IMG/VR virus record: IMGVR_UViG_3300018481_000088
Location: 1 to 20,586 of that record
DNA from: a virus
Direction: 5' to 3' (one strand)
Length of the DNA stretch: 20,586 nucleotides
Part shown: positions 5,687 through 20,586 of the stretch, piece by piece
Layout: every line of letters starts with the position of its first letter
How positions within the stretch are numbered: the first letter of the stretch is position 1
The notes under the pieces: model-generated
Seen by the model: only the letters and a program-made list of their open reading frames with translations
Databases searched by the model: none
Told to the model about the DNA's origin: nothing
Position numbers and translations under genes: made by a program

Positions 5687-7249
5687 GTGACAACATGGAA
5701 CCCATCGGACAAATCTTCACAGGTTAATCTTACTGGTAGCGATCTCATCGCTACCATCGGCAGTTCGACGTTTTACGAATACTGCCGCACGACCACCTCG
5801 AAAAACAGCGGCAAGGTGGTTTTTGAAGTTCACTGCAACGCCGACCAGGCGGTCGGCCTGACGCAGGCCGGCGTCATCCCTAGCTATGGGCAAGACGGCG
5901 CGAAGGAAGAATACTGCTTTGTGCCGCAAGGCGGCTACACGCTGCTGCGCTACAAGGGCAGCGGGCCCGGCTTCGAAAACACCAACCCGACGCCGTCGAG
6001 CGATTGGTACCTGCGCTGGTACCTCGACTTCACCGCAGGTGTTCAATACTTCGAAGTTAAAATCGGATCTGGCGGCAGCTGGACAAAGTTTTTTGGCGGT
6101 GATGCTGCCGCCGGTACGGGCGGCTTGGCACTCACCGCCGGATCCTGGTTTCCGTGCGTCGAGGCCTACGGCGGCGGTCACGCCACCACGCTTAATCCAA
6201 GCCCCACTAGCCTGCATTCGGGCTGGACGGCATGGGATGCCGCACCGACCGGCATCACCGGCACGCTGGGGGCCACCGAGGCGCCTGATACGGCGCTGAT
6301 CACAGGCACGGTGGCGACGGCCGGCATCAGCGGCACACTCGGCGCCATCGAAGCGCCCGACACCGCGCTGATTAATGGCGCCACGCGCTGGAACGCCACC
6401 CTGGCGGCAAGCGAGGCGCCTGACACTGCGCTGATCAATGGCGCTACACGCTGGAATGCTGCGCTAGCTGCTACTGAAGCGCCCGACACCGCACTGATCA
6501 ATGGCGCCGTCCGCTGGAATGCTGCGCTAGCTGCCACCGAAGCTCCTGACACCGCGCTGATCAATGGTATGACGCGCTGGAATGCTGCGCTGGCGGCTAC
6601 CGAGGCGCCAGACACTGCGTTGATCAACGGTACGACGCGCTGGAACGCCGCTCTGGTGGCCACTGAAGCGTCCGATACCGCGCTGATACAGGGCACCGTC
6701 ACCACGGCAGGCCAGATCTCCGGCTCGCTGGTAGGGCTTGAGGCCCCAGACACCGCACTCATCAACGGAGCGGTTACCGGCACCGCTGGCATACTGACCG
6801 CGACCGAGATCCCTGACACCGCGTCCATCAATGGCGCCGTGCGGTGGAACGCAGCCCTGGCGGCAAGCGAGGCGACAGACACCGCACTGATCAATGGCAC
6901 GGTGCGCTGGAACGCCCTCCTGGCCGCGGTCGAGGCCAGCGACATCGCGCTGATACAAGGCACGGTTAGTGCGCCGGCCACCATCACCGGCACGCTGAAC
7001 GCTCAGGAAGCGCCCGACACGGCGTTGATAACAGGCACGCTGGGTCTGCTCCAGGTTACCGGCACGCTGAACGCCCAGGAGGCCCCGGACACCGCGTTAA
7101 TCGTCGGGAACCTTGTTCTGCCCCAGCTTACTGGTATTCTGGCCGCGACCGAAGCTCCCGACACGGCGCGCATCAACGTCTTCTCGGAGCCTAAAGGGCT
7201 CCCCGGCGTTTTGGTTTTTGGAAGAACCGTCGTCATCAACCGCTGGTAA
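5687..7249 (+). CDS. SPRY-like domain fused to fourteen EAPDTALING repeats
   Basis: 520 residues from GTG 5687. The start is supported because TTWNPSDKSSQVNLTGSDL is the usual opening of phage SPRY-like domains. Residues 2-170 form that domain (SGKVVFEVHC, AVGLTQAG, YGQDG, LRWYLDFTAGVQYFEVKIG, GTGGLALTAGSWFPCVEAYG), a beta-sandwich that often binds protein or glycan partners. Residues 190-497 hold 14 repeat units, and the last 23 residues end VFGRTVVINRW, like repeat protein A. Such an architecture fits a rod with a terminal binding domain on the virion, perhaps a receptor-binding or capsid-surface fibre; this is inference. The first 120 bases look more A+T-rich than neighbouring genes and contain a perfect 10-bp hairpin. 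Units 3-6 are almost identical in protein and DNA, a sign of recent duplication or homogenisation. Confidence 0.85.
   Translation: MTTWNPSDKSSQVNLTGSDLIATIGSSTFYEYCRTTTSKNSGKVVFEVHCNADQAVGLTQAGVIPSYGQDGAKEEYCFVPQGGYTLLRYKGSGPGFENTNPTPSSDWYLRWYLDFTAGVQYFEVKIGSGGSWTKFFGGDAAAGTGGLALTAGSWFPCVEAYGGGHATTLNPSPTSLHSGWTAWDAAPTGITGTLGATEAPDTALITGTVATAGISGTLGAIEAPDTALINGATRWNATLAASEAPDTALINGATRWNAALAATEAPDTALINGAVRWNAALAATEAPDTALINGMTRWNAALAATEAPDTALINGTTRWNAALVATEASDTALIQGTVTTAGQISGSLVGLEAPDTALINGAVTGTAGILTATEIPDTASINGAVRWNAALAASEATDTALINGTVRWNALLAAVEASDIALIQGTVSAPATITGTLNAQEAPDTALITGTLGLLQVTGTLNAQEAPDTALIVGNLVLPQLTGILAATEAPDTARINVFSEPKGLPGVLVFGRTVVINRW
5734..5756. other. Perfect 10-bp hairpin near the start of the SPRY/repeat gene
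   Basis: The arms TGGTAGCGAT (5734-5743) and ATCGCTACCA (5747-5756) are exact reverse complements around a 3-base loop CTC. It lies 47 bases inside the reading frame and encodes SGSDLIATI-like sequence, with no T-run after it. It could affect early elongation or mRNA stability, be a protein-binding palindrome, or be chance. Confidence 0.6.
6254..7177 (+). repeat. Fourteen-copy coding repeat (array B)
   Basis: Tandem units of about 57-75 bases with protein consensus LAATEAPDTALINGAVRWNA. Units 2-6, 9 and 10 use a short RW-NA linker; units 1, 7, 11, 12 and 13 use a longer linker ending (I/V/L)(S/T)G. Units between about 6380 and 6660 are highly similar at DNA level, so recombination or slippage could change copy number. 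Confidence 0.85.
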
Positions 7250-9276: not shown

Positions 9277-10545
9277 ATGACCGATACTTCCGCTCCAGTA
9301 GCGCCGCCGAATGTACAAAATGTACAAACCGAAGTCCCCATCAATACAGATCAGACGTCCGGCCCCAACCCGATTAGCAACCAGGCGCCCGATAAGCCGC
9401 CGCCGACCCGGCGCGAGGCGATCCAGGCGGCCTTTGATCGCGCTAACAAGCCGCGGGATAATGCGCGGGAGATGCGCGGGAAACCCGCGGATAATACGCC
9501 GCCGCCTAAAGCCGCCGAGGCCAAGGCCGGCCACAACCAGCCGCCAGAACCTACTGAAAAGATTGACTTAAAGAAGCGTCCCGACGACCAGCCGCGCGAC
9601 AGGGGGCGATTTGCGCCGCGTCAAGTGGCAAACGAGGCAAACGCGTCAAACGCGTCACCTGACGCCGATGCCACGAAGGGTATGAACGAAACCCGGCCGG
9701 CGACGCCGCATCCTACCCTTCCCGAAAACACCCCGTTCCGAGAGCCGCCGCAGCGCATGGCCGACCACGCCAAGGCGGCCTGGGCGGCAACACCGGAGCC
9801 GGTGCGCGGCGAGATCCACCGCATGCACCAGGAGTTCGGCAACGCCTACAACCAGCTGAAGCCGGTCGCCGACGCCTTCCAGCCGATCGCACGCTTCCAC
9901 CAGATGGCGCGAGAGCACGGCACCACGCTGGAGCGGGCGCTGACCAATTACACTTCGATGGAGCAGAAGCTGCGCGCCGATGTGGTCGGCGGCCTCGACG
10001 TCATCGTCAATAATCTGGGCCTGAAGGCGCCCGACGGCTCGCGCATCGGGCTTCGCGACATCGCCTATCACGTCCTCAGCCAGTCGCCGGAGCAGCTCAA
10101 GCAGCTCCAGATGGGCAACACCCAGAACGCCGCCAGCCAACAGATCGGCGCCCTGCATCATGAGATTGCGGGCTTGAAACAAGCCTTGAACCAGATGCAT
10201 ACTCAGCAGCAATTCGCGTACACGCGTTCCCAGGTCGATCAATTCGCGGACAGTCACCCGCGCTTCGACGAACTGGGTGCCCTGATCAAGAACGAGCTAG
10301 ATCTCGGATTTGATCTGGAGACCGCGTATCGAAGGGCCGAGCTGTTAGCACCGGCCACCCAAGCGGCTCAGACCCGCGGCAATTCCCCATCGGCTCAGAC
10401 CCGACCCGCTGACAGGTCCATCTCCGGCTCGCCGGGTGGCGTTGCATCACAAGCCGCAGCTTCATCAAGGCGCAATTCAGAGAAACCCGTCGGTCGACGT
10501 GAGGCCATTGAGAACGCCGTCAAACGCGTTCGCGGTGGCGCTTAA
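9277..10545 (+). CDS. Probable scaffolding protein
   Basis: 422 residues from ATG 9277, with GGAG about 8 bases upstream, placed directly before the coat gene as scaffolds usually are. Scaffolds co-assemble with coat protein into the procapsid and then leave or are degraded. The first 160 residues are Pro/Asn/Ala-rich and disordered-looking. From about 165 the protein is helical: FREPPQRMADHAKAAWAATP, then GEIHRMHQEFGNAYNQLKPV, FARFHQM-like and LERALTNYTSMEQKLRADVV segments, as in P22-like scaffolds of proteobacterial phages. A motif occurs at both ends, TRREAIQAAFDRA (44-56) and GRREAIENAVKRV (406-418). The basic C-terminus (AVKRVRGGA) would fit the coat-binding helix known for P22-type scaffolds. 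The assignment rests on position and composition more than on an exact motif. Confidence 0.8.
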   Translation: MTDTSAPVAPPNVQNVQTEVPINTDQTSGPNPISNQAPDKPPPTRREAIQAAFDRANKPRDNAREMRGKPADNTPPPKAAEAKAGHNQPPEPTEKIDLKKRPDDQPRDRGRFAPRQVANEANASNASPDADATKGMNETRPATPHPTLPENTPFREPPQRMADHAKAAWAATPEPVRGEIHRMHQEFGNAYNQLKPVADAFQPIARFHQMAREHGTTLERALTNYTSMEQKLRADVVGGLDVIVNNLGLKAPDGSRIGLRDIAYHVLSQSPEQLKQLQMGNTQNAASQQIGALHHEIAGLKQALNQMHTQQQFAYTRSQVDQFADSHPRFDELGALIKNELDLGFDLETAYRRAELLAPATQAAQTRGNSPSAQTRPADRSISGSPGGVASQAAASSRRNSEKPVGRREAIENAVKRVRGGA

Positions 10546-13212: not shown

Positions 13213-14847
13213 ATGAGCCAGCATCAATCATTCCGCCGCGTGGCTGTACAACAGCAAGTTGCCACCAGACAGGAGACGGTGACGTTTCCGGCGCCGACGC
13301 GCGGACTGATCCTGAGCGAGAACGAAAGCTACATGCAGCCTGGTGCTGCGCTGATCATGGACAACTGGAAGCCGACGCTGAAGGGCGCCGCCATCCGCGG
13401 CGGTCACATATTGTGGGCGACACTTCCAGAAGCGACACCAATCATCTCGGCCTTCAGCTACGCCAGCGGCACCACCAATCGCCGGATGTACGTCGCCAAC
13501 GACGCCAAGGTCTACGACGTCACCACCACTACGCCGGTGCTAATCAAGAGCGGGCAACTCAACGGCAATTACTCGGCCTCGCAGCTCGCCAACCAGGGCG
13601 GCGACTTCCTGATCGCGGTCAACGACGCCGGCGATTTCCCGATCCGGTTCGACGGCACGACGTGGACGACGTTGAGCGCCAGCGAGATCAACGCCAGCCT
13701 GGTGACGTACCCTGGCAACAACGTCTCTATCGGCAAGAACCTGACGCACGTCTGCAAGTACCGCAACCGCTGGTTTTTTATCGAGGCCAACTCGATGAAC
13801 GCCTGGTACCTGCCGCTCAACGCCATCCAGGGCACGCTGTTGCAGATCCCGCTGTCCGGCGCAGCGACCAAGGGCGGCAAGCTGCTGTACTGCGCGACAT
13901 GGTCGATCGACGCCGGCGACGGCATCGACGACAAGATTGTATTCGGCACCGACCTCGGCGAAATCATCGTGTTCACCGGCAGCGACCCGTCCTCTGCGGC
14001 CAACTGGAAGCAGGAAGGTCGCTACGACATGAGCCCACCCATGGGCAAGAACGCCACGCTTTCGGTCGGCGGCGATCTTCTTGTCGCCTGCGTCGAAGGC
14101 ATACTCCCCACAAGCGGGGCGATCACAAAAGACCGTGCCGAACTCGAACTATCCGCCGTCACCAAGAACATCCGGCCGATGTGGCGCGAGGAAGTGCTCG
14201 CCAAGCGCCAGTGGGCCTGGACGATGTGCAAGTGGGACGCCTATGGCGGCATCTTCGTCACCTGGCCTGGCGGTGCGCCAGGGCAGCAGCGGTGTGCCGT
14301 CGTCAACAGCTCCACCGGTGCCTGGGGGCGTTTCACCGGCTGGGACTGCACCTGCTTCATCAGGCAAAACGACGATATGTTTTTCGGCACCCAGACCGGC
14401 CAGGTGATGCAGGCCGATCGCACCGGCTACGATAACGGCTTGCCCTACACCTGCACGATCGTTGGTGGCTGGGAGGTTTTCAAGAGCCCGGCGCAGACGA
14501 TTACCTGGAAGCAGGCCCGCGCCTCGTTCCTGGCGCGCGCCGGCGAGACCTTCGTGCCGCAACTCGCCGGCACCACGGATTATGTGATCACGGTGCCGAC
14601 ACCGCCATTGCCCGGTATCGACCCTGGCGTGCTTGACCTTTGGGACAGTGGCCTTTGGGACGTTGCCCTTTGGGACAGTGGCGTGGCCGTGGCGCCAGTC
14701 GTGCGCAACACGGGCTGGGTCTCGATCGGCGTTACCGGTTTTTCCCATGCGCCGATCGTCCAGGTTACGATGGCGCAGCAGGCCAAGCCGGACATTGAAT
14801 TGATCTCAGTCGCGGGCGTGTTCGAACGCCTCGCTGTCACCGTGTAG
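13213..14847 (+). CDS. Tail hub / DNA-stabilisation protein, P22 gp10-like
   Basis: 544 residues from ATG 13213, two bases after the previous stop and without a clear Shine-Dalgarno, so probably coupled. Proteins of this type form the tail hub below the gp4-like ring and help hold packaged DNA. The N-terminus (TFPAPTRGLILSENESYMQP, GAALIMDNWKPTLKGAAIRG) is the characteristic opening of such podophage hubs. It is followed by a beta-propeller-like series of strands (GTTNRRMYVANDAKVYDVTT, FLIAVNDAGDFPIRFDGTTW, GKNLTHVCKYRNRWFFIEAN, KIVFGTDLGEIIVFTG). Near the C-terminus, residues 476-490 read LWDSGLWDVALWDSG, shared with repeat protein A. That motif may be an added docking element. No catalytic residues are apparent. 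Confidence 0.8.
   Translation: MSQHQSFRRVAVQQQVATRQETVTFPAPTRGLILSENESYMQPGAALIMDNWKPTLKGAAIRGGHILWATLPEATPIISAFSYASGTTNRRMYVANDAKVYDVTTTTPVLIKSGQLNGNYSASQLANQGGDFLIAVNDAGDFPIRFDGTTWTTLSASEINASLVTYPGNNVSIGKNLTHVCKYRNRWFFIEANSMNAWYLPLNAIQGTLLQIPLSGAATKGGKLLYCATWSIDAGDGIDDKIVFGTDLGEIIVFTGSDPSSAANWKQEGRYDMSPPMGKNATLSVGGDLLVACVEGILPTSGAITKDRAELELSAVTKNIRPMWREEVLAKRQWAWTMCKWDAYGGIFVTWPGGAPGQQRCAVVNSSTGAWGRFTGWDCTCFIRQNDDMFFGTQTGQVMQADRTGYDNGLPYTCTIVGGWEVFKSPAQTITWKQARASFLARAGETFVPQLAGTTDYVITVPTPPLPGIDPGVLDLWDSGLWDVALWDSGVAVAPVVRNTGWVSIGVTGFSHAPIVQVTMAQQAKPDIELISVAGVFERLAVTV
14641..14676 (+). repeat. WDSGLWD motif shared with repeat protein A
   Basis: These 36 bases encode WDSGLWDVALWD in the hub gene. 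The 36 bases at 1674-1709 encode WDSGLWDTAIWD, and about 28 of 36 bases agree by eye. Inside the motif, TTTGGGAC recurs with a spacing of 15 bases. Confidence 0.75.
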
Positions 14848-14856
14848 GAGCGCGCC

Positions 14857-16152
14857 ATGACCGACGTGAGCGGCATTCCCAATATGGGCTTCGGCGGTGG
14901 CGGCTATTTCGGCGGCAGTCCGAACCAGCAGCCGGCGATGAGCGCGGGGCAAATTAATCAGGCTATGTGGGGCAACTACTCGCCGCAGCAAGCGCAGTCC
15001 GTGATTGACAACCTGTACCCTGGCGGCTTCGGCTCGCAGACCGCTTACTACGCCGCGCTCGCCGCCGCCTACGGTCGCGCGACCGGCGGTTATGGCGGTT
15101 ATGGCGGCCAAAACGATCCTTTGACCCCGGTTACGGATGAGCAGCGCGCTGCGGCCTACGCGCGCAACCCCGCCCTGATGGGCCCCGGCGCCGCGCCGGC
15201 TGGTGGCGGTGGCGATCCAAATGCAGCGCGGGCGGCGGCCTACGCCAGCAACCCCGCCCTGATGGGGCCGAGCGTGTTCGATACCGGCACAACGCCGTTC
15301 AACGATTACGACGGCGGCGCTAACCCCGGTAATTTCAGCCCAGGGCCGATCCCGCCGATCAACGCCCCGGTCGGCGGCGTCTTCGACCCCAATGCGGAGC
15401 GGGCGGCAGCGTATGCCAGAAACCCCGCCCTGATGGGTCCGGCGGCGCCATTCAATAATTACAACGGCGGCGCCAACCCCGGTAATTTCAGCCCTAACCC
15501 GACCAATTCCACACCACCGCCTGTGCAGGCGCAACTACCACCCAGCAGCCCGCCGCAAGGGTTCGACCCCAATGCGGAGCGGGCGGCAGCGTATGCCAGA
15601 AACCCCGCCCTGATGGGCCCTGGAGGGGTGTCGAGCCATCCGCAGGGGGCACAGCCGTCGGCGCAGTCGGCACCGTTTGACCCTGACGCGGCCCGCGCAG
15701 CCGCATACGCCGCTAACCCGAGCTTGAGGGGCCCGGCAATGGGTTCGACGTTCGATCAGTCCACCTACACGCCCAACCCATACGCTGGGATGATCCTCGG
15801 CCCCCAAGGCAACCCCGAATATTTCAATCCTGGCGCCTACGCCGGCGACCAGGGCAACTACGGCATCCCGTACCAGGGCGCGCGCCTGCCCGGCGACATC
15901 GGGTTCAACGGCCAGCAGCAGACGCCGAACCTTGGCTACAATCCCGGCATGCAGAACTGGTTCGCGCCGCAGCAAGGCCCCAACGCCTACGCGCCGCTGG
16001 GTGGCGCGCTGCAGTACCCCAACAGCGGCTCGCCGAGCCAGTACGACCCGAGCGGCCAGATGCCGCCCGGCTTCGCTGGCGAGTACAGTTTTGACAATCA
16101 GGGTGGCTATTTGCCGTTCGGCGCCACCGGAGGCTACCAGCCGGGAGGATAA
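14857..16152 (+). CDS. Low-complexity Gly/Pro/Asn-rich protein with five NPALMGP repeats
   Basis: 431 residues from ATG 14857, with TAGGAG overlapping the previous stop. After a Gly-rich N-terminus and a helical stretch (INQAMWGNYSPQQAQSVIDN), residues 94-293 hold five copies of a unit with consensus DPNAERAAAYARNPALMGP, separated by Pro/Gly/Asn-rich linkers. Two linkers share GGANPGNFSP. The rest is Pro/Gly/Tyr/Asn-rich (NPGAYAGDQGNYGIPYQGAR) and probably disordered. No membrane segment or catalytic motif is seen. Its position after the hub gene suggests a tail-associated or internal virion protein, perhaps flexible enough to pass the portal channel. It could also be a multivalent binding platform, each NPALMGP unit docking one partner. 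Function is not recognised. Confidence 0.75.
   Translation: MTDVSGIPNMGFGGGGYFGGSPNQQPAMSAGQINQAMWGNYSPQQAQSVIDNLYPGGFGSQTAYYAALAAAYGRATGGYGGYGGQNDPLTPVTDEQRAAAYARNPALMGPGAAPAGGGGDPNAARAAAYASNPALMGPSVFDTGTTPFNDYDGGANPGNFSPGPIPPINAPVGGVFDPNAERAAAYARNPALMGPAAPFNNYNGGANPGNFSPNPTNSTPPPVQAQLPPSSPPQGFDPNAERAAAYARNPALMGPGGVSSHPQGAQPSAQSAPFDPDAARAAAYAANPSLRGPAMGSTFDQSTYTPNPYAGMILGPQGNPEYFNPGAYAGDQGNYGIPYQGARLPGDIGFNGQQQTPNLGYNPGMQNWFAPQQGPNAYAPLGGALQYPNSGSPSQYDPSGQMPPGFAGEYSFDNQGGYLPFGATGGYQPGG
15136..15735 (+). repeat. Five-copy (A/E)RAAAYARNPALMGP coding repeat
   Basis: Copies encode residues 94-110, 120-138, 177-195, 237-255 and 275-293. Copies 3 and 4 are identical over 56 bases (15382-15437 and 15562-15617), exactly 180 bases apart, while copies 1, 2 and 5 are diverged. 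This points to a recent duplication or gene conversion of a 60-residue unit. Confidence 0.85.
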
Positions 16153-16155
16153 CGC

Positions 16156-16641
16156 ATGAGCCTCGGGTACGTGTACGGGCATGATGGGGTGGTGTCGGCC
16201 TTCGTGGCGCGACTGATCCCGCATTGCCACCGCGGCTTCGGGTTCAACATCAAGACCATCGGCATCATCGACCAGGGCGACCTGGTCGCCGGCATCGTGT
16301 TCCACAACTGGGATCCCGATGCCGGCATTATCGAGATCTCGGGCGCGGCGCTGCCGGGCGAGCCGTGGCTTTCACGTGAAACACTCAAGCGGATGTTCCA
16401 GTACCCGTTTCACGAATGCGGCTGTCAGATGGTGGTGCAACGCACGCCGCGGGATGACGAGAAGCTACTCGGGGTGCTGGCCAAGTACGGCTACGACTTC
16501 GTGCACGTGCCCCGGCTGTTCGGCCGTGACCGTGATGGCGTGATCTGCCTGCTGACGGCGGAAGCCTGGGCGAGCAACAAGTTCAACCGACGGTTCGGCC
16601 ACCATCTGAGGCTGGATCCTGTCAGAGAGGCCGCAGAATGA
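16156..16641 (+). CDS. GNAT-like acetyltransferase fold protein
   Basis: 161 residues from ATG 16156, GGGAGGA at 16143-16149. The pattern KTIGIIDQGDLVAGIVFHNW, PDAGIIEISGAA, PWLSRETLKRMFQYPFHECG, CQMVVQRTPRDDEKLLGVLA, KYGYDFVHVPRLFGRDRDG matches a GNAT-like family often encoded among phage virion genes. GNAT enzymes move an acetyl group from acetyl-CoA to an amine. The usual acetyl-CoA loop (Q/RxxGxG/A) is not clear here, so activity is uncertain; the fold may serve as a binding module. It lies between a repeat protein and a Pro-rich protein and overlaps the latter as ATGA. Its substrate could be host or virion protein; nothing in the sequence decides. Confidence 0.75.
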   Translation: MSLGYVYGHDGVVSAFVARLIPHCHRGFGFNIKTIGIIDQGDLVAGIVFHNWDPDAGIIEISGAALPGEPWLSRETLKRMFQYPFHECGCQMVVQRTPRDDEKLLGVLAKYGYDFVHVPRLFGRDRDGVICLLTAEAWASNKFNRRFGHHLRLDPVREAAE

Positions 16642-16964
16642 GCATGCCAGGAGCTCCACAGAACGACCAGCGCAACGCCATCACGATGGCGCTGATGGGC
16701 ATCGCTAATCCGCCGGGCAAGGGACAGCTGCCGCAGATGCCTCAGATGCCGCCGCAGAGTGTTGGCCAAGGCATGACCGCGATCGGCAACGCCATAGGCG
16801 GCATGGGGCAGCCGCCCCAGCAGCCTGGCCCGCCGATGTCACTAACGCCGCCTCCGCAGCAGCCACCGCCAGGACTACCGCCGCAGGCGCAGCCGATGGC
16901 GCCGCAAGGGGCGCCGGTCGGCGCCGCGCCCATGCCGCCCCAAGGTCCGCAAGGCCTCTACTAG
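16638..16964 (+). CDS. Small Pro/Gln/Met-rich protein with motif shared by gene 18374-20194
   Basis: 108 residues from ATG 16638, overlapping the GNAT-like gene by ATGA. The N-terminal half contains QRNAITMALMGIANPPGKGQ and then VGQGMTAIGNAIGGMG, which aligns with the N-terminus of the protein at 18374-20194 (KIALAMLMQKRKAP, then FGEGLSAIGDSLGDIG). The remainder is Pro/Gln/Gly-rich and surely disordered (PQQPGPPMSLTPPPQQPPPG). No known domain. The shared motif suggests that both proteins are handled by the same partner, for example packed in the head or bound at the tail; this is inference. Confidence 0.7.
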   Translation: MSMPGAPQNDQRNAITMALMGIANPPGKGQLPQMPQMPPQSVGQGMTAIGNAIGGMGQPPQQPGPPMSLTPPPQQPPPGLPPQAQPMAPQGAPVGAAPMPPQGPQGLY

Positions 16965-16973
16965 GAGAGCACG

Positions 16974-18374
16974 ATGGGCAAGCCAGATCCTCCGACCCCG
17001 CCCAATCCGTATCAGACCGCGGCGGCGCAGACCGGCACCAACGTCTCGACGGGGGTGGCGAACGCATTTCTGAACAACACCAATCAGATCACGCCGGAAG
17101 GCTCAATATCTTACGACGTGACGGGAAATTATAACTGGACCGACCCGTCCACCAACCAGACCTATTCGATCCCGCGCTTTACCGCGACGCAGACGCTGTC
17201 GCCATCGCAACAGGCGCTGAAGGGCCAGAACGACCAGACCCAGCTCAACTTGGCGACGATGGGCAACCAGCAGTCACAGCGGGTGGGTGGGCTGTTGTCG
17301 CAGCCGTTCGATCCTAACACCGGCGCGCCGACCGGCGGCGACGCCCAGAACATCCTCGGCGTCGGCCAGGCCAGGACCTCGTTCGATCCTGGCGGCCAGG
17401 TGCAGACCGGCTTCGGCGATGCCGGTGACATCACGCGCAGCTACGGTGCTGGTGACTTCAGCCAGGACCGCCAGAACGTCGAGGACGCGCTGATGGCGCG
17501 GATGAACCCGCAGCTGGCGCGGGAGCGGGCCAACATCGAGCAACGGCTGGCCGACCAGGGCATCCGCTACGGCAGCCAAGCCTACACCTCGGCGATGGAC
17601 GACTATAACCGGCAAGCGACTGATACCCGGTTTGGCGCCATCAGCCAGGCGGGGCAAGAGCAGCAGCGCATGATGGACATGGCGGCGCAACGCGCCGGCT
17701 TCCAGAACAGCGCGCAGCAGCAGGCCTATGACCAGGCCCAGGGCCGCGCCGCCTTCGGCAATGCGGCGGTCGGCCAGCAGTTCAACCAGAACGCCCAGAT
17801 GGCCGGCTTTGAAAATGCCGGCCTGGCGCAACAGCTGGCGCAGCAGCAGAGTGGCTTCAACGCGCAGCAGACGCAGCGCAATCAGTACATGCAGGAGGCT
17901 TACCAGCAGCGCAATCAGCCGCTGAACGAGATCAGCGCGCTGATGAGCGGCGGGCAGGTGCAGCAGCCGAACTGGCTCAACACGCCTAATTCGCAGATCG
18001 CCACCACCGATTTCGCCGGCATCATGAACCAGAATTTTGCCCAGCAGCAGGCCAACTATCAGACCCAGAACCAGAACTGGCAGAGCATGATGGGCGGCGT
18101 TCTCGGTCTCGGTGCCGGTGCCATGAAGCTGTCCGACGAGCGCGAGAAGAAGAATATCGATCGCGTCGGCACCGTGTTCGCCTTCAATGAGGACGCCGAA
18201 CGCGAGAAGCTGCCGGTCTACGAATACGAGTATAAGCGCGGTGATGGCTCGCGCCACGTCGGGCCGATGGCGCAGGACGTCGAGAAGATCGATCGCGGCG
18301 CCGTGCATGACATCGGCGGGCGGAAGGCGATCGATACGCGTCGCGTGATGGGCAACATTCTGAGGGCCGCGTGA
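16974..18374 (+). CDS. Gln/Asn-rich virion protein with C-terminal S74 chaperone domain
   Basis: 466 residues from ATG 16974, TAGGAGAG overlapping the previous stop. Residues 1-380 are Gln/Asn/Ala-rich. They include a helical region with a repeated AGFxNxxxxQ pattern (QRAGFQNSAQQQAYDQAQGR, MAGFENAGLAQQLAQQQSGF) and RNQPLNEISALMSGGQVQQP, a phrase typical of a widespread phage protein. Residues 386-466 form a Peptidase_S74-type intramolecular chaperone: SDEREKKNI, then LPVYEYEYKRGDGSRHVGPM, AQDVEKIDRGAVHDIGGRKA. The Ser and Lys of SDxRxK (387, 392) are present, so self-cleavage is possible. S74 domains usually trimerise fibre proteins and then cleave off. The body here does not look like a classic beta-fibre, so a tail-tip or internal protein is also possible. 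Confidence 0.8.
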   Translation: MGKPDPPTPPNPYQTAAAQTGTNVSTGVANAFLNNTNQITPEGSISYDVTGNYNWTDPSTNQTYSIPRFTATQTLSPSQQALKGQNDQTQLNLATMGNQQSQRVGGLLSQPFDPNTGAPTGGDAQNILGVGQARTSFDPGGQVQTGFGDAGDITRSYGAGDFSQDRQNVEDALMARMNPQLARERANIEQRLADQGIRYGSQAYTSAMDDYNRQATDTRFGAISQAGQEQQRMMDMAAQRAGFQNSAQQQAYDQAQGRAAFGNAAVGQQFNQNAQMAGFENAGLAQQLAQQQSGFNAQQTQRNQYMQEAYQQRNQPLNEISALMSGGQVQQPNWLNTPNSQIATTDFAGIMNQNFAQQQANYQTQNQNWQSMMGGVLGLGAGAMKLSDEREKKNIDRVGTVFAFNEDAEREKLPVYEYEYKRGDGSRHVGPMAQDVEKIDRGAVHDIGGRKAIDTRRVMGNILRAA

Positions 18375-20194
18375 TGTCAGATCTCCTCAGCGCATTCGGA
18401 CCTAGCATGTTCTTCGCCGGTGCCGGCAACGCCAACACGCCGCAGGCGCTGCGCCAGAAGATCGCGCTGGCGATGCTGATGCAGAAGCGCAAGGCACCTT
18501 CAACCTTCGGCGAGGGCCTGAGCGCGATCGGCGACAGCCTCGGCGATATCGGCATGATGCGGCGCATCGAGAGCGAGGCTGCTGCCGCCGAGCAGGCCGC
18601 CACCGGCGCGGAGAGCCGCATCCTGGGCGGTGGTGGAGCGCCGCAAGCGGTTGCGCCGGGAAGTCCACCTCCAGTGCAGGCCGCGGCGATGTCGGCGCCA
18701 AGCTCGCTCTATTCGCCTTCCCCGAGCCCGACAGACCAGACACCGGTGCCCGGTGGCGTGCAGGAGGGTGGACCGCCTCAAGGCATGGCGTTTCGTCCTG
18801 GCATCCGCACGGCGGCCGCAGCGCCATTGCCGCCGGCAGCTCCTGCGGTGCCGACGCCGCCTGACCAGCAGCAGTCCTATGCACCAGGCGCGCCGGTGCG
18901 GATGTCGAGCGATGCGCAGCTCGCCGATTTTCGCGCACAGAACCCGCTACCGCCAGGGTTGCCACCGGTACCGCAGGGGCCGCCGGCTGCTCCGCAGCAG
19001 CCTGGCGGGGCGCGGCCGACCGTGGCTGACTTTGGCCAGAAGCCGGTGCTGGCGCCAACGCCGCCGGTCGTGGCCCAGGGTGCGGAAGGCGAGGATCCAC
19101 GTCGCGCCATCGCGCTAGCGATGCTGCGGCAGGGCCAGACCGGCCAGCCGCAGGGCCAGGCCTTTGCGCCGGCTGCGGCGCCGCCGCCACCACCACCACC
19201 ACCGCCCGCGCCACCGCCTGACCAAGGCATTGCGCCAGCCCCGCCCCCGCCGCCGCCGCGTCAGGTGGCGCGGGCGCAGCCGGCACTGGTCCCGGACATC
19301 GGGCCAGAACCGACCCCGCCGGCCTTAACGACGCCGCGAATGCAGCAGATCCGGAACGTGGTCAGCAACACGCCGCCGGCGTACCGCGACACGGTGAAGG
19401 AAAAGCTGGCGCCGATTTACGCGCAAGAAGAGGCCACAGTTAAGCTGGCGCACGAGGCCCATAAGGAGAAGCTGGCGGCGTGGCGGCAAAAGGACGTCGA
19501 GCAGTACAAGCGAACCGCCGACGCGCCCAAAACCCAGGCCGATATCGACAAGATCCGGCACGACATTGCCGCCGGCAAGATTATCCAGAGCGAGGGTCGC
19601 ATCTTCCGGGTTGAGGGTGACGGCGTCAAAGACATCACGCCCGGCCAGACCGGCGACGGACCGCCGCAGATCAAGATGACGCAAGATCAGTCCGACACCC
19701 TGAAATTCTATCGTATGGGGCTGACGGCGGCCTCTCAGCTGGAGGGTAAGGAGCGGCTGCTCGCCGAGGGTCTCAAAGAAGAGCTGGCGGGCAAGGTGCC
19801 GTTCGTCGGTAACAAGCTGCTGAGTTCACAGTACCGTGCCGCCAAGAACGCCGCGGGCCTGTTGGTGCAGGCCGACTTGCGCGACACCTCCGGCGCCACG
19901 ATCGGCACCCAAGAGTTCAAGGACCGTTTTGATCTGCTGGTGCCGCGGCCAGGCGACGACGAGCGGGCGATGCGCAATAAGGCCGAGGCGCGCCGGGCGG
20001 TGCTGGAGGGCCAGCGGCTGGCGCTCGGCACCGCGCGGCCAATGGCCGATTACGTCGACAAGGAGCACGCCAAGGGCCGCGCGGAGAAAATCAGCACCCT
20101 CAACCGTGAGATGGAGGGTAAGGACCGCGGCAAGACCTACGAGAAAAACGGCGTTTTCCGCAGATGGAACGGCACCGCCTGGGAGGAATACTGA
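18374..20194 (+). CDS. Probable internal/ejection virion protein, Pro-rich centre
   Basis: 606 residues from ATG 18374, chosen over GTG 18371 because GAGGG lies about 7 bases before the ATG and the previous stop overlaps it as TGATG. Residues about 20-60 hold KIALAMLMQKRKAPSTFGEG and then LSAIGDSLGDIG, shared with the protein at 16638-16964; a second copy of the core, RRAIALAMLRQGQ, is encoded at about 19100-19135. Residues about 80-320 are Pro-rich, with nine Pro in a row (19181-19207). The C-terminal part is helical. It includes PFVGNKLLSSQYRAAKNAAG, then LVQADLRDTSGATIGTQEFK and LLVPRPGDDERAMRNKAEAR, a domain I recognise from phage structural and ejection-type proteins, often next to lytic enzymes. 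No lysozyme motif is seen here. The role as an ejected protein is inferred. Confidence 0.75.
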   Translation: MSDLLSAFGPSMFFAGAGNANTPQALRQKIALAMLMQKRKAPSTFGEGLSAIGDSLGDIGMMRRIESEAAAAEQAATGAESRILGGGGAPQAVAPGSPPPVQAAAMSAPSSLYSPSPSPTDQTPVPGGVQEGGPPQGMAFRPGIRTAAAAPLPPAAPAVPTPPDQQQSYAPGAPVRMSSDAQLADFRAQNPLPPGLPPVPQGPPAAPQQPGGARPTVADFGQKPVLAPTPPVVAQGAEGEDPRRAIALAMLRQGQTGQPQGQAFAPAAAPPPPPPPPPAPPPDQGIAPAPPPPPPRQVARAQPALVPDIGPEPTPPALTTPRMQQIRNVVSNTPPAYRDTVKEKLAPIYAQEEATVKLAHEAHKEKLAAWRQKDVEQYKRTADAPKTQADIDKIRHDIAAGKIIQSEGRIFRVEGDGVKDITPGQTGDGPPQIKMTQDQSDTLKFYRMGLTAASQLEGKERLLAEGLKEELAGKVPFVGNKLLSSQYRAAKNAAGLLVQADLRDTSGATIGTQEFKDRFDLLVPRPGDDERAMRNKAEARRAVLEGQRLALGTARPMADYVDKEHAKGRAEKISTLNREMEGKDRGKTYEKNGVFRRWNGTAWEEY

Positions 20195-20586
20195 TGGCCT
20201 CCGACGACTGGACACCTGTGGGAGACGACGCAGCGTCGTCCGGCTGGCTGGACACCGCCAATGATTTCGGCCGTGCCGTCAGCAACGCTGCGACCTTTGG
20301 CATGGCCAACCGCCTCAAGGGCCTGATCTCCGGCACCGGCACTGACGAGCAGGCACGGCTATCAGAGGTCGCGCGTGAGCGCAGCCCCATCACTTCGGCT
20401 GTCGGCGACGTCTACGGCGCGTTTGCAATTCCGTCGCTCGGCGCCGCCAGGGCCGCTGCCGCGATGGGCGGCACCGCCCTGGCCCGAGCGGCTGCCTATG
20501 GCGGCACTGGCGCCATCACCGGCGCGGCGCAGGGCGCCGGCAACACCTACACCGGCAACCCGAGGGACTACGTCGAAAACGCCGCG
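20194..20586 (+). CDS. Probable internal virion protein, 3' end cut by window edge
   Basis: The first 131 residues are visible from ATG 20194, which overlaps the previous stop as TGATG; no stop occurs before the window ends. The start (MASDDWTPVGDDAASSGWLD) is followed by FGRAVSNAATFGMANRLKGL, RERSPITSAVGDVYGAFAIP, and an Ala/Gly-rich stretch (AARAAAAMGGTALARAAAYG) ending GAAQGAGNTYTGNPRDY. I recognise this N-terminus, with its NAATFGMA and GAGNTYTGN phrases, from phage proteins encoded at the end of structural modules. The Gly/Ala-rich helices resemble glycine-zipper membrane-inserting segments, which would suit an ejected channel-forming protein. The full length is unknown. Confidence 0.75.
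   Translation, partial: MASDDWTPVGDDAASSGWLDTANDFGRAVSNAATFGMANRLKGLISGTGTDEQARLSEVARERSPITSAVGDVYGAFAIPSLGAARAAAAMGGTALARAAAYGGTGAITGAAQGAGNTYTGNPRDYVENAA

Follow-up and report, generated by a model that had tools for sequence, protein, structure and literature searches.

The window analysed here is the complete 20,586-base virus record IMGVR_UViG_3300018481_000088, a podovirus fragment that holds a late region of podovirus type. Its late genes are ordered portal, scaffold, major capsid protein, SU10-type adaptor, tail, GNAT, a small gene encoding 108 amino acids (aa), S74, a large gene encoding 606 residues and the start of a next gene. This work concerns a helical module in two parts, helix 1 and helix 2, which is carried by both the small and the large protein. 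The features that bear it are listed below (pLDDT, predicted local distance difference test).

16638..16964, plus strand: small 108-aa proline-rich (Pro-rich) protein with both module halves; the AlphaFold2 model (mean pLDDT 57) is unstructured apart from a single helix at residues 8-23, which is the motif
16668..16697, plus strand: helix-1 motif QRNAITMALM of the small protein, recognized by a regular expression (regex)
16752..16808, plus strand: helix-2 half PQSVGQGMTAIGNAIGGMG of the small protein, profile domain E 6e-3 and 1.9e-3; best fit to the large protein of its own phage
18371..20194, plus strand: putative large ejection/internal virion protein, 606 aa from the ATG at 18374; assigned by its place after the S74 gene, synteny with phage phiGT1 and family matches
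18443..18493, plus strand: helix 1 of the large protein, QALRQKIALAMLMQKRK; R28 invariant and A32 at least 90% conserved in the alignment; AlphaFold helix 25-37
18497..18565, plus strand: helix 2 of the large protein, PSTFGEGLSAIGDSLGDIGMMRR; G47, G49 and G54 invariant in 43 proteins; AlphaFold helix 46-85
19100..19138, plus strand: internal repeat of helix 1, RRAIALAMLRQGQ, in a disordered Pro-rich linker; short predicted helix 245-250, surrounding pLDDT mostly below 50

The module in the large and the small late protein

A first-pass annotation of the window had proposed that the two proteins share a helical module. The segments on which it relied, QRNAITMALMGIANPP and PPQSVGQGMTAIGNAIGGMG in the 108-aa protein, LRQKIALAMLMQKRKAPSTFGEGLSAIGDSLGDIG in the N-terminal part of the large protein and RRAIALAMLRQGQ from 19100, were all found in place, and the last of them indeed repeats the core inside the large protein, within its Pro-rich linker. 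The statement that the rest of each protein is unrelated and Pro-rich was correct for the small protein and for the middle of the large one, but not for the C-terminal third of the large protein, which is a predicted folded helical domain.

Relatives were collected by an S74 scan of viral contigs (187 found, 80 retained; L numbers below designate individual relatives), and named relatives were obtained via the S74 gene (14 records from Rhizobium, Sulfitobacter, Microcystis, EBPR and Bradyrhizobium phages). The large-protein module has the form of an R-x-x-I-A-x-A-M/L-M helix followed by P-K-T/N-x-G-E-G-L-x-x-I/L-G-x-x-I/L-G. An alignment of 43 large proteins shows no variation at R28, G47, G49 and G54, and at least 90% conservation at A32, P43, K44 and E48. 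Most of the invariant or near-invariant non-proline columns fall in the module; the others comprise M2, scattered prolines and one glycine. The domain behind the module differs among these 43 relatives, being Phage_lysozyme2 in 9/43, Peptidase_M15_3 in 3/43 and Peptidase_M15_2 in 3/43. The module is the conserved end of the large protein, with a variable middle and C-terminus in which murein hydrolases are exchanged.

The AlphaFold2 model of the window's large protein (mean pLDDT 67.9; predicted template-modelling score, pTM, 0.38) consists of helix 25-37, a turn, helix 46-85, an unstructured chain to about residue 320 and a folded C-terminal part, with values of about 65-88 in the module blocks. 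A comparison of this model, with its pTM of 0.38, to PDB folds gave no match at E <= 0.001, and one 'DNA transfer protein' stood among the entries of its predicted-fold list. The module proteins of the window phage are probably virion-internal and ejected, as suggested by synteny and family matches. In phiGT1 the syntenic gene bears the annotation of a putative internal virion/injection protein that has a FlgJ-like domain, and 10/43 members of the large family matched phrog_2534, a family labelled 'released from the phage upon host infection'. The place of the large gene in the late cluster, behind the head-tail genes and beside other probable ejection genes, agrees with that of podoviral ejection proteins of the T7 gp14-16 or P22 gp7/16/20 type. 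A murein hydrolase, as one member of a podoviral ejection set is expected to carry, is present in the family but not in the window's own large protein, for which neither a Pfam match nor a murein hydrolase domain was obtained.

The window pair by itself is weak and near chance. The BLASTP alignment was confined to the second half, with 8/23 identities (E 3e-4 for a single comparison). Shuffled versions of the small protein reached the real score in 31/2000 cases against the first 120 residues of the large protein and in 115/500 against the whole large protein, the high scores in the latter case arising because both proteins are Pro-rich. No Pfam, NCBIfam or PHROGs match was obtained for the small protein. 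Named phages searched directly with either window protein gave no match, and a search of them with the module alone gave one unconvincing match only.

On sequence grounds, the presence of the module in both proteins is settled by the relatives. A profile of the large N-terminus recognized the second half of the module in the window's small protein (domain E 6e-3), in that of L002/L005 (2.8e-4) and, weakly, in that of L011 (8.8e-2). In a prophage of Ensifer sp. LC163, an 87-aa protein encoded between S74 and large could be aligned over the whole module to the large protein of the same prophage (55 columns, score 77, reached in 0/2000 shuffles). The proposal of a shared helical module, weak for the pair alone, is thereby borne out by profiles, relatives and the Ensifer prophage; the searches neither retrieved only full-length homologues of one of the two genes nor failed to match the two, the outcomes that the first-pass annotation had named as counting against it.

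Spread of helix 1 and within-phage matching of helix 2

The spread of helix 1 was analysed with the regex R..[IVLM][AT]..[LMIV][MLI], which was picked after the sequences had been seen. In the first set of relatives it matched 37/43 small proteins before S74 (0.2 expected) and 46/60 large proteins (1.2 expected). Matches were further obtained for 24/71 proteins between tail and S74 (two of them, in L020 and L060, being the small protein assigned there by distance), 3/3 between S74 and large, 12/22 products of the next gene and 10/19 in the first slot after large. No match was found in coat (41), adaptor (85), tail (60), S74 (63), GNAT (42) or scaffold (29) proteins, in 93 other upstream proteins or in 65 from the remaining slots after large, and frames on the opposite strand gave 2/183. 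Because the regex was post hoc, the count was repeated on held-out loci, 51 non-redundant ones out of 122 new loci, without long overlap with the first set. Here 28/30 small, 18/65 tail-to-S74, 10/10 between S74 and large, 34/41 large, 21/30 next-gene and 7/18 unplaced proteins matched, and none did among tail (23), S74 (45), GNAT (42), adaptor (9), after-next (28) and opposite-strand (31) frames. Module queries had served to retrieve the held-out loci, which biases the counts for small and large proteins; the remaining rows were not selected in this way.

Eight near-complete contigs contained 20 regex matches in 377 genes versus 7.9 by shuffle, 18 of which lay in the cluster (placed by reading positions). 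The strict regex was also applied to 8 named relatives: it matched the next-gene proteins of RHph_N2 and pCB2047-C near their C-termini and the large protein of Microcystis phage Mwe-JY13, and none of the other proteins examined. The absence of matches from neighbouring conserved families, together with the held-out loci, leads us to reject chance or composition as the sole cause; for the window pair alone, that explanation is retained. Helix 1 recurs in five late-protein slots and is restricted to the late cluster. As anticipated in the first-pass annotation, late proteins of varied architecture are involved: the module fronts large proteins with differing domains and recurs in small proteins. 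The module is N-terminal in both of these, but helix 1 is also seen inside linkers rich in proline and, in next-gene proteins, close to the C-terminus, and it is found alone in proteins that lack helix 2.

An extra Q-rich protein of 80-110 aa that opens with a helix-1 motif (RKxxAxQxMAQ) was seen in L036, L061, L070, L163, L164 and L209; in the first three it is encoded between S74 and large.

A genome search with the profile at E 0.01 gave matches in 23/394 genomes of the Ensifer family, 10/397 of the order and 9/385 of the class, the three samples overlapping; the class-level sample held a single strong match (G017) and little beyond. For a survey of small proteins, 20 places were fetched as regions. 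Small proteins with helix 2 are encoded before S74 (the window, L005, L011, L135, L178), between S74 and large (L232, L270, L271, L284, L286) or after the next gene (L273, L275, L282), that is, in at least seven lineages and three gene positions. A small-frame scan around the large gene in the 20 regions yielded a clear partner in 9, L285 being borderline (28 versus a null maximum of 27).

To compare helix 2 of small and large proteins within and between phages, 24 residues from seven lineages were scored without gaps. The true pairs summed to 420 against a mean of 260 over 5040 pairings, and only the true pairing (1/5040) reached 420. For each small protein the best fit was the large protein of its own phage (7/7 rows). 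The matching survived the dropping of any lineage and the removal of the G-x-G columns, and by identity 6/7 rows were best. When L285 and L135, used in the extended test only, were added, 9/362,880 pairings reached the sum and the diagonal was best in 6/9 rows. Of the related L232, L270 and L271 only L232 was included in the permutation test, and L276 and L283 were set aside (truncated or decayed copy, isolated relic).

The paired sequences are identical at 36-44 of 72 nucleotides, and shared residues use the same codon in 47/104 cases versus 39.2 expected (nine pairs including L270 and L271), the expected value being rough as codon usage was taken from all long frames of one strand. Recent duplication or conversion thus left little sign in the codon test. 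On these values, selection on one interface is likelier than recent copying as the origin of the helix-2 matching; an older gene conversion could still be its source.

It is very improbable that the module is a plain duplicated segment without a role of its own, spread by local duplications among ejection genes and kept by drift and by Pro/Ala/Gly-rich composition. The low complexity of the proteins, the near-chance score of the window pair and a weak within-phage similarity that extends outside the module are in line with such an origin. However, the module is conserved where other parts of the large proteins have diverged, neighbouring conserved families gave zero matches, and the pairs have the low nucleotide identity given above with no clear same-codon excess. 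The within-phage match of helix 2 would also be expected for two halves of one interface, and it is conceivable, though rather unlikely, that the helices 2 of the small and large proteins pack together and build an ejected conduit or inner core. The predicted two-helix module with its long helix 46-85 agrees with homotypic assembly of this kind, whereas about half of the scanned regions have a large protein without a clear small partner and helix 1 stands alone in proteins without helix 2.

Proposed docking function and candidate partners

Selection of ejection proteins into podovirus heads is described as poorly understood (passages of PMC8402733). We propose that the module may serve to dock ejected proteins, positioning them in the head during assembly, a reading we would defend about as readily as we would doubt it. 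Helix 1 (R-x-x-I-A-x-A-L/M-M) would act as a short linear helical motif, present in several cluster proteins, sometimes repeated, on disordered chains. Helix 2 (G-E-G-L-x-A-I-G-x-x-I/L-G) comes after a proline turn and is the second predicted helix in the large protein. Both would bind a single site on a procapsid component or on the portal/tail core, with the S74 protein or scaffold/coat as candidate partners. In this way the large protein would bring along an exchangeable domain for wall degradation or for a conduit, and the same tag would admit the small disordered proteins. A docking tag fits with the module's N-terminal position and conservation in an enzyme-bearing protein, its presence on small disordered proteins and its confinement to the cluster.

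Several results weigh against docking as proposed. In the AlphaFold2 model of the small protein, no helix is predicted for the helix-2 half. By regex, helix 1 is missing from 14/60 large, 6/43 small and many next-gene proteins, and it shows no within-phage matching (1854/5040 permutations reach the sum). Outside the module, which was masked for this comparison, the proteins still give a weak within-phage excess (305 versus 263; 69/5040), so that composition contributes something to the matching. No clear small helix-2 partner was found in 11/20 scanned regions (in L289 the anchor was misplaced), so that the scheme does not depend on the small protein. To these are added the gene linkage of S74 and the scaffold result given below.

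A role after ejection is improbable in our view. Here the module would be an amphipathic helix that binds membrane or envelope and anchors the proteins in the host periplasm or inner membrane, as might suit the murein hydrolases of the large family, its matches to families labelled as released upon infection, and the abundance of A, L, I and M in helix 1. The conserved R, G-x-G and AIG columns, in contrast, suggest a specific interface, and a generic membrane helix would not be expected to give within-phage matching.

For the proposed docking, the following further genes were considered as partners or as additional carriers of helix 1.

16974..18374, plus strand: S74-domain virion protein between the two module genes; phrog_6121 (E 1.7e-115), phrog_4287 (DNA ejection protein), Peptidase_S74
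20194..20586, plus strand: first part of the next gene, which runs past the end of the window; the proteins of relatives bear helix 1 near the C-terminus
9277..10545, plus strand: scaffold, named from its position upstream of the coat gene and from how this position is annotated in phiGT1/NYA-2014a

The phiGT1 counterpart of the next gene is annotated as a weakly P22 gp16-like injection protein. No match to the scaffold was found in NCBIfam, the only family library searched for it.

The S74 protein is without the helix-1 motif (0/63) and is a candidate partner of the module. Across 34 phages module divergence tracked that of S74 (r 0.58; partial 0.46, p 0.003) and, more weakly, that of the tail protein (partial 0.18, p 0.007), and was unrelated to that of the last 180 residues of the large protein (r 0.05). 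In the two smaller sets, of 13 and of 7 phages, the tail protein was as good as S74 or better. As the 3' end of S74 adjoins the module, linkage may explain part of the co-divergence. Neither the portal (n=16) nor the scaffold (n=7) covaried with the module.

The extreme C-terminus of the scaffold, GRREAIENAVKRVRGGA, is a degenerate match to helix 1. A cluster-motif profile that was built without the large N-termini found its best scaffold match at the extreme C-terminus in 26/29 scaffolds. When 37 families (10,919 windows) were ranked, the cluster families came first, followed by the scaffold C-terminus, which appears twice (scores 4.9 and 4.1), and then by the S74 stretch DRQNVEDALMARM (2.7). 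Because the scaffolds are homologous, the match of their C-terminus counts as about one observation. The ejected proteins might enter the procapsid by scaffold mimicry, helix 1 copying the last scaffold helix (R-R/D-E/D-A-I-x-x-A-I-K/R-R-V), which on the present sequence likeness we regard as a long shot. If it were true, scaffold and cargo would share equivalent positions on the coat or the scaffold dome, and gaining the motif would turn any protein into virion cargo. As a separate observation, RREAI-xx-A-(F/V)-x-R occurs twice in the scaffold (9277-10545), near the N-terminus (TRREAIQAAFDRAN) and at the extreme C-terminus (GRREAIENAVKRVRGGA), and many relatives retain both copies.

As a compact element that has clear invariant residues and is reused across proteins and gene slots, the module provides a defined sequence for deletion, grafting and fusion. 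It also offers a sequence-only means to recognize virion cargo genes in environmental phages.

Other repeated motifs were seen in the window. The tail protein (13213-14847) carries a tryptophan-aspartate string, WDxGLWDxAxWD, that is also present in the tail proteins of relatives (38); a similar string, WDSGLWDTAIWD, opens the frame at 1659-2480 and is another candidate shared motif. Long tandem repeats of about 20 residues (EAPDTALINGAVRWNAALAA) lie at 5687-7249, with related repeats in the frame 1659-2480. A Gly-rich protein of 431 aa (14857-16152) without a family match has spaced copies of (E/A)RAAAYAxNPxLxGP, four by pattern and a fifth variant visible.

Comparison with known systems

The late gene order of the window, minus the small gene, is shared with phiGT1, RHph_N2, pCB2047-C and EBPR podovirus 2. 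Sulfitobacter phage phiGT1 has syntenic S74, large and next genes, and the N-terminus of its large protein was matched by a module profile built without phiGT1 (E 2.2e-4); it differs from the window in having no small module protein between GNAT and S74. The lineage is described as distantly P22-like in the parts of the phiGT1 literature covered, and those parts of the phiGT1 paper hold no discussion of such a module. At the level of titles and abstracts, together with passages of PMC10386132, PMC8954989, PMC3012670, PMC8402733, PMC12005531 and PMC10783043, no title or abstract describing the module was found.

Large proteins of the Rhizobium phage RHph_I3_18 type (xTSPVQHWSQGAARVxxAL) have the same layout, namely a hydrophobic helix with R, a proline, QG, a second helix and R. 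As in the module family, this segment stands at the N-terminus of a protein encoded downstream of S74 and precedes a Phage_lysozyme2 domain. By sequence, no likeness to the GEGL form could be detected (domain E 1.8 or worse), and kinship between the two is a lead only. The form was looked at in 6 contigs; at L088:12351-14330 and in L290-L295, xTSPVQHWSQGAARxxxAL opens the syntenic large protein as a second N-terminal module form with the order helix, proline, QG, helix.

Passages on the internal proteins IPI-IPIII of phage T4 describe a common targeting sequence needed for head uptake (PMC3012670, PMC8402733), and the first ten residues of IpIII are reported there to suffice (PMC8402733). As far as these passages describe it, the T4 capsid targeting sequence resembles the module in being a short sequence common to otherwise diverse internal proteins; unlike it, the module consists of two parts, recurs within linkers and is found near C-termini as well. 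Compared with the T4 type, the module is N-terminal in the small and large proteins and internal or C-terminal in others. T4 also differs as a myovirus whose prohead protease processes the targeting sequence. The likeness is one of role, and no sequence likeness or family membership is claimed.

For P22, the scaffold is required for ejection-protein uptake and N-terminal portions of gp7 and gp20 are responsible (passages of PMC8402733), and a procapsid structure places the ejection-protein docking site at scaffold columns (passages of PMC12005531). The literature passages covered describe no shared motif among the P22 ejection proteins, and the sole hint of a relation between the large protein and gp7/gp20 is the 'DNA transfer protein' of the predicted-fold list. 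The P22 proteins gp7, gp16 and gp20 are podoviral ejection proteins, as the module proteins probably are, and gp7 and gp20 have N-terminal portions that guide incorporation, as is proposed here for the N-terminal module.

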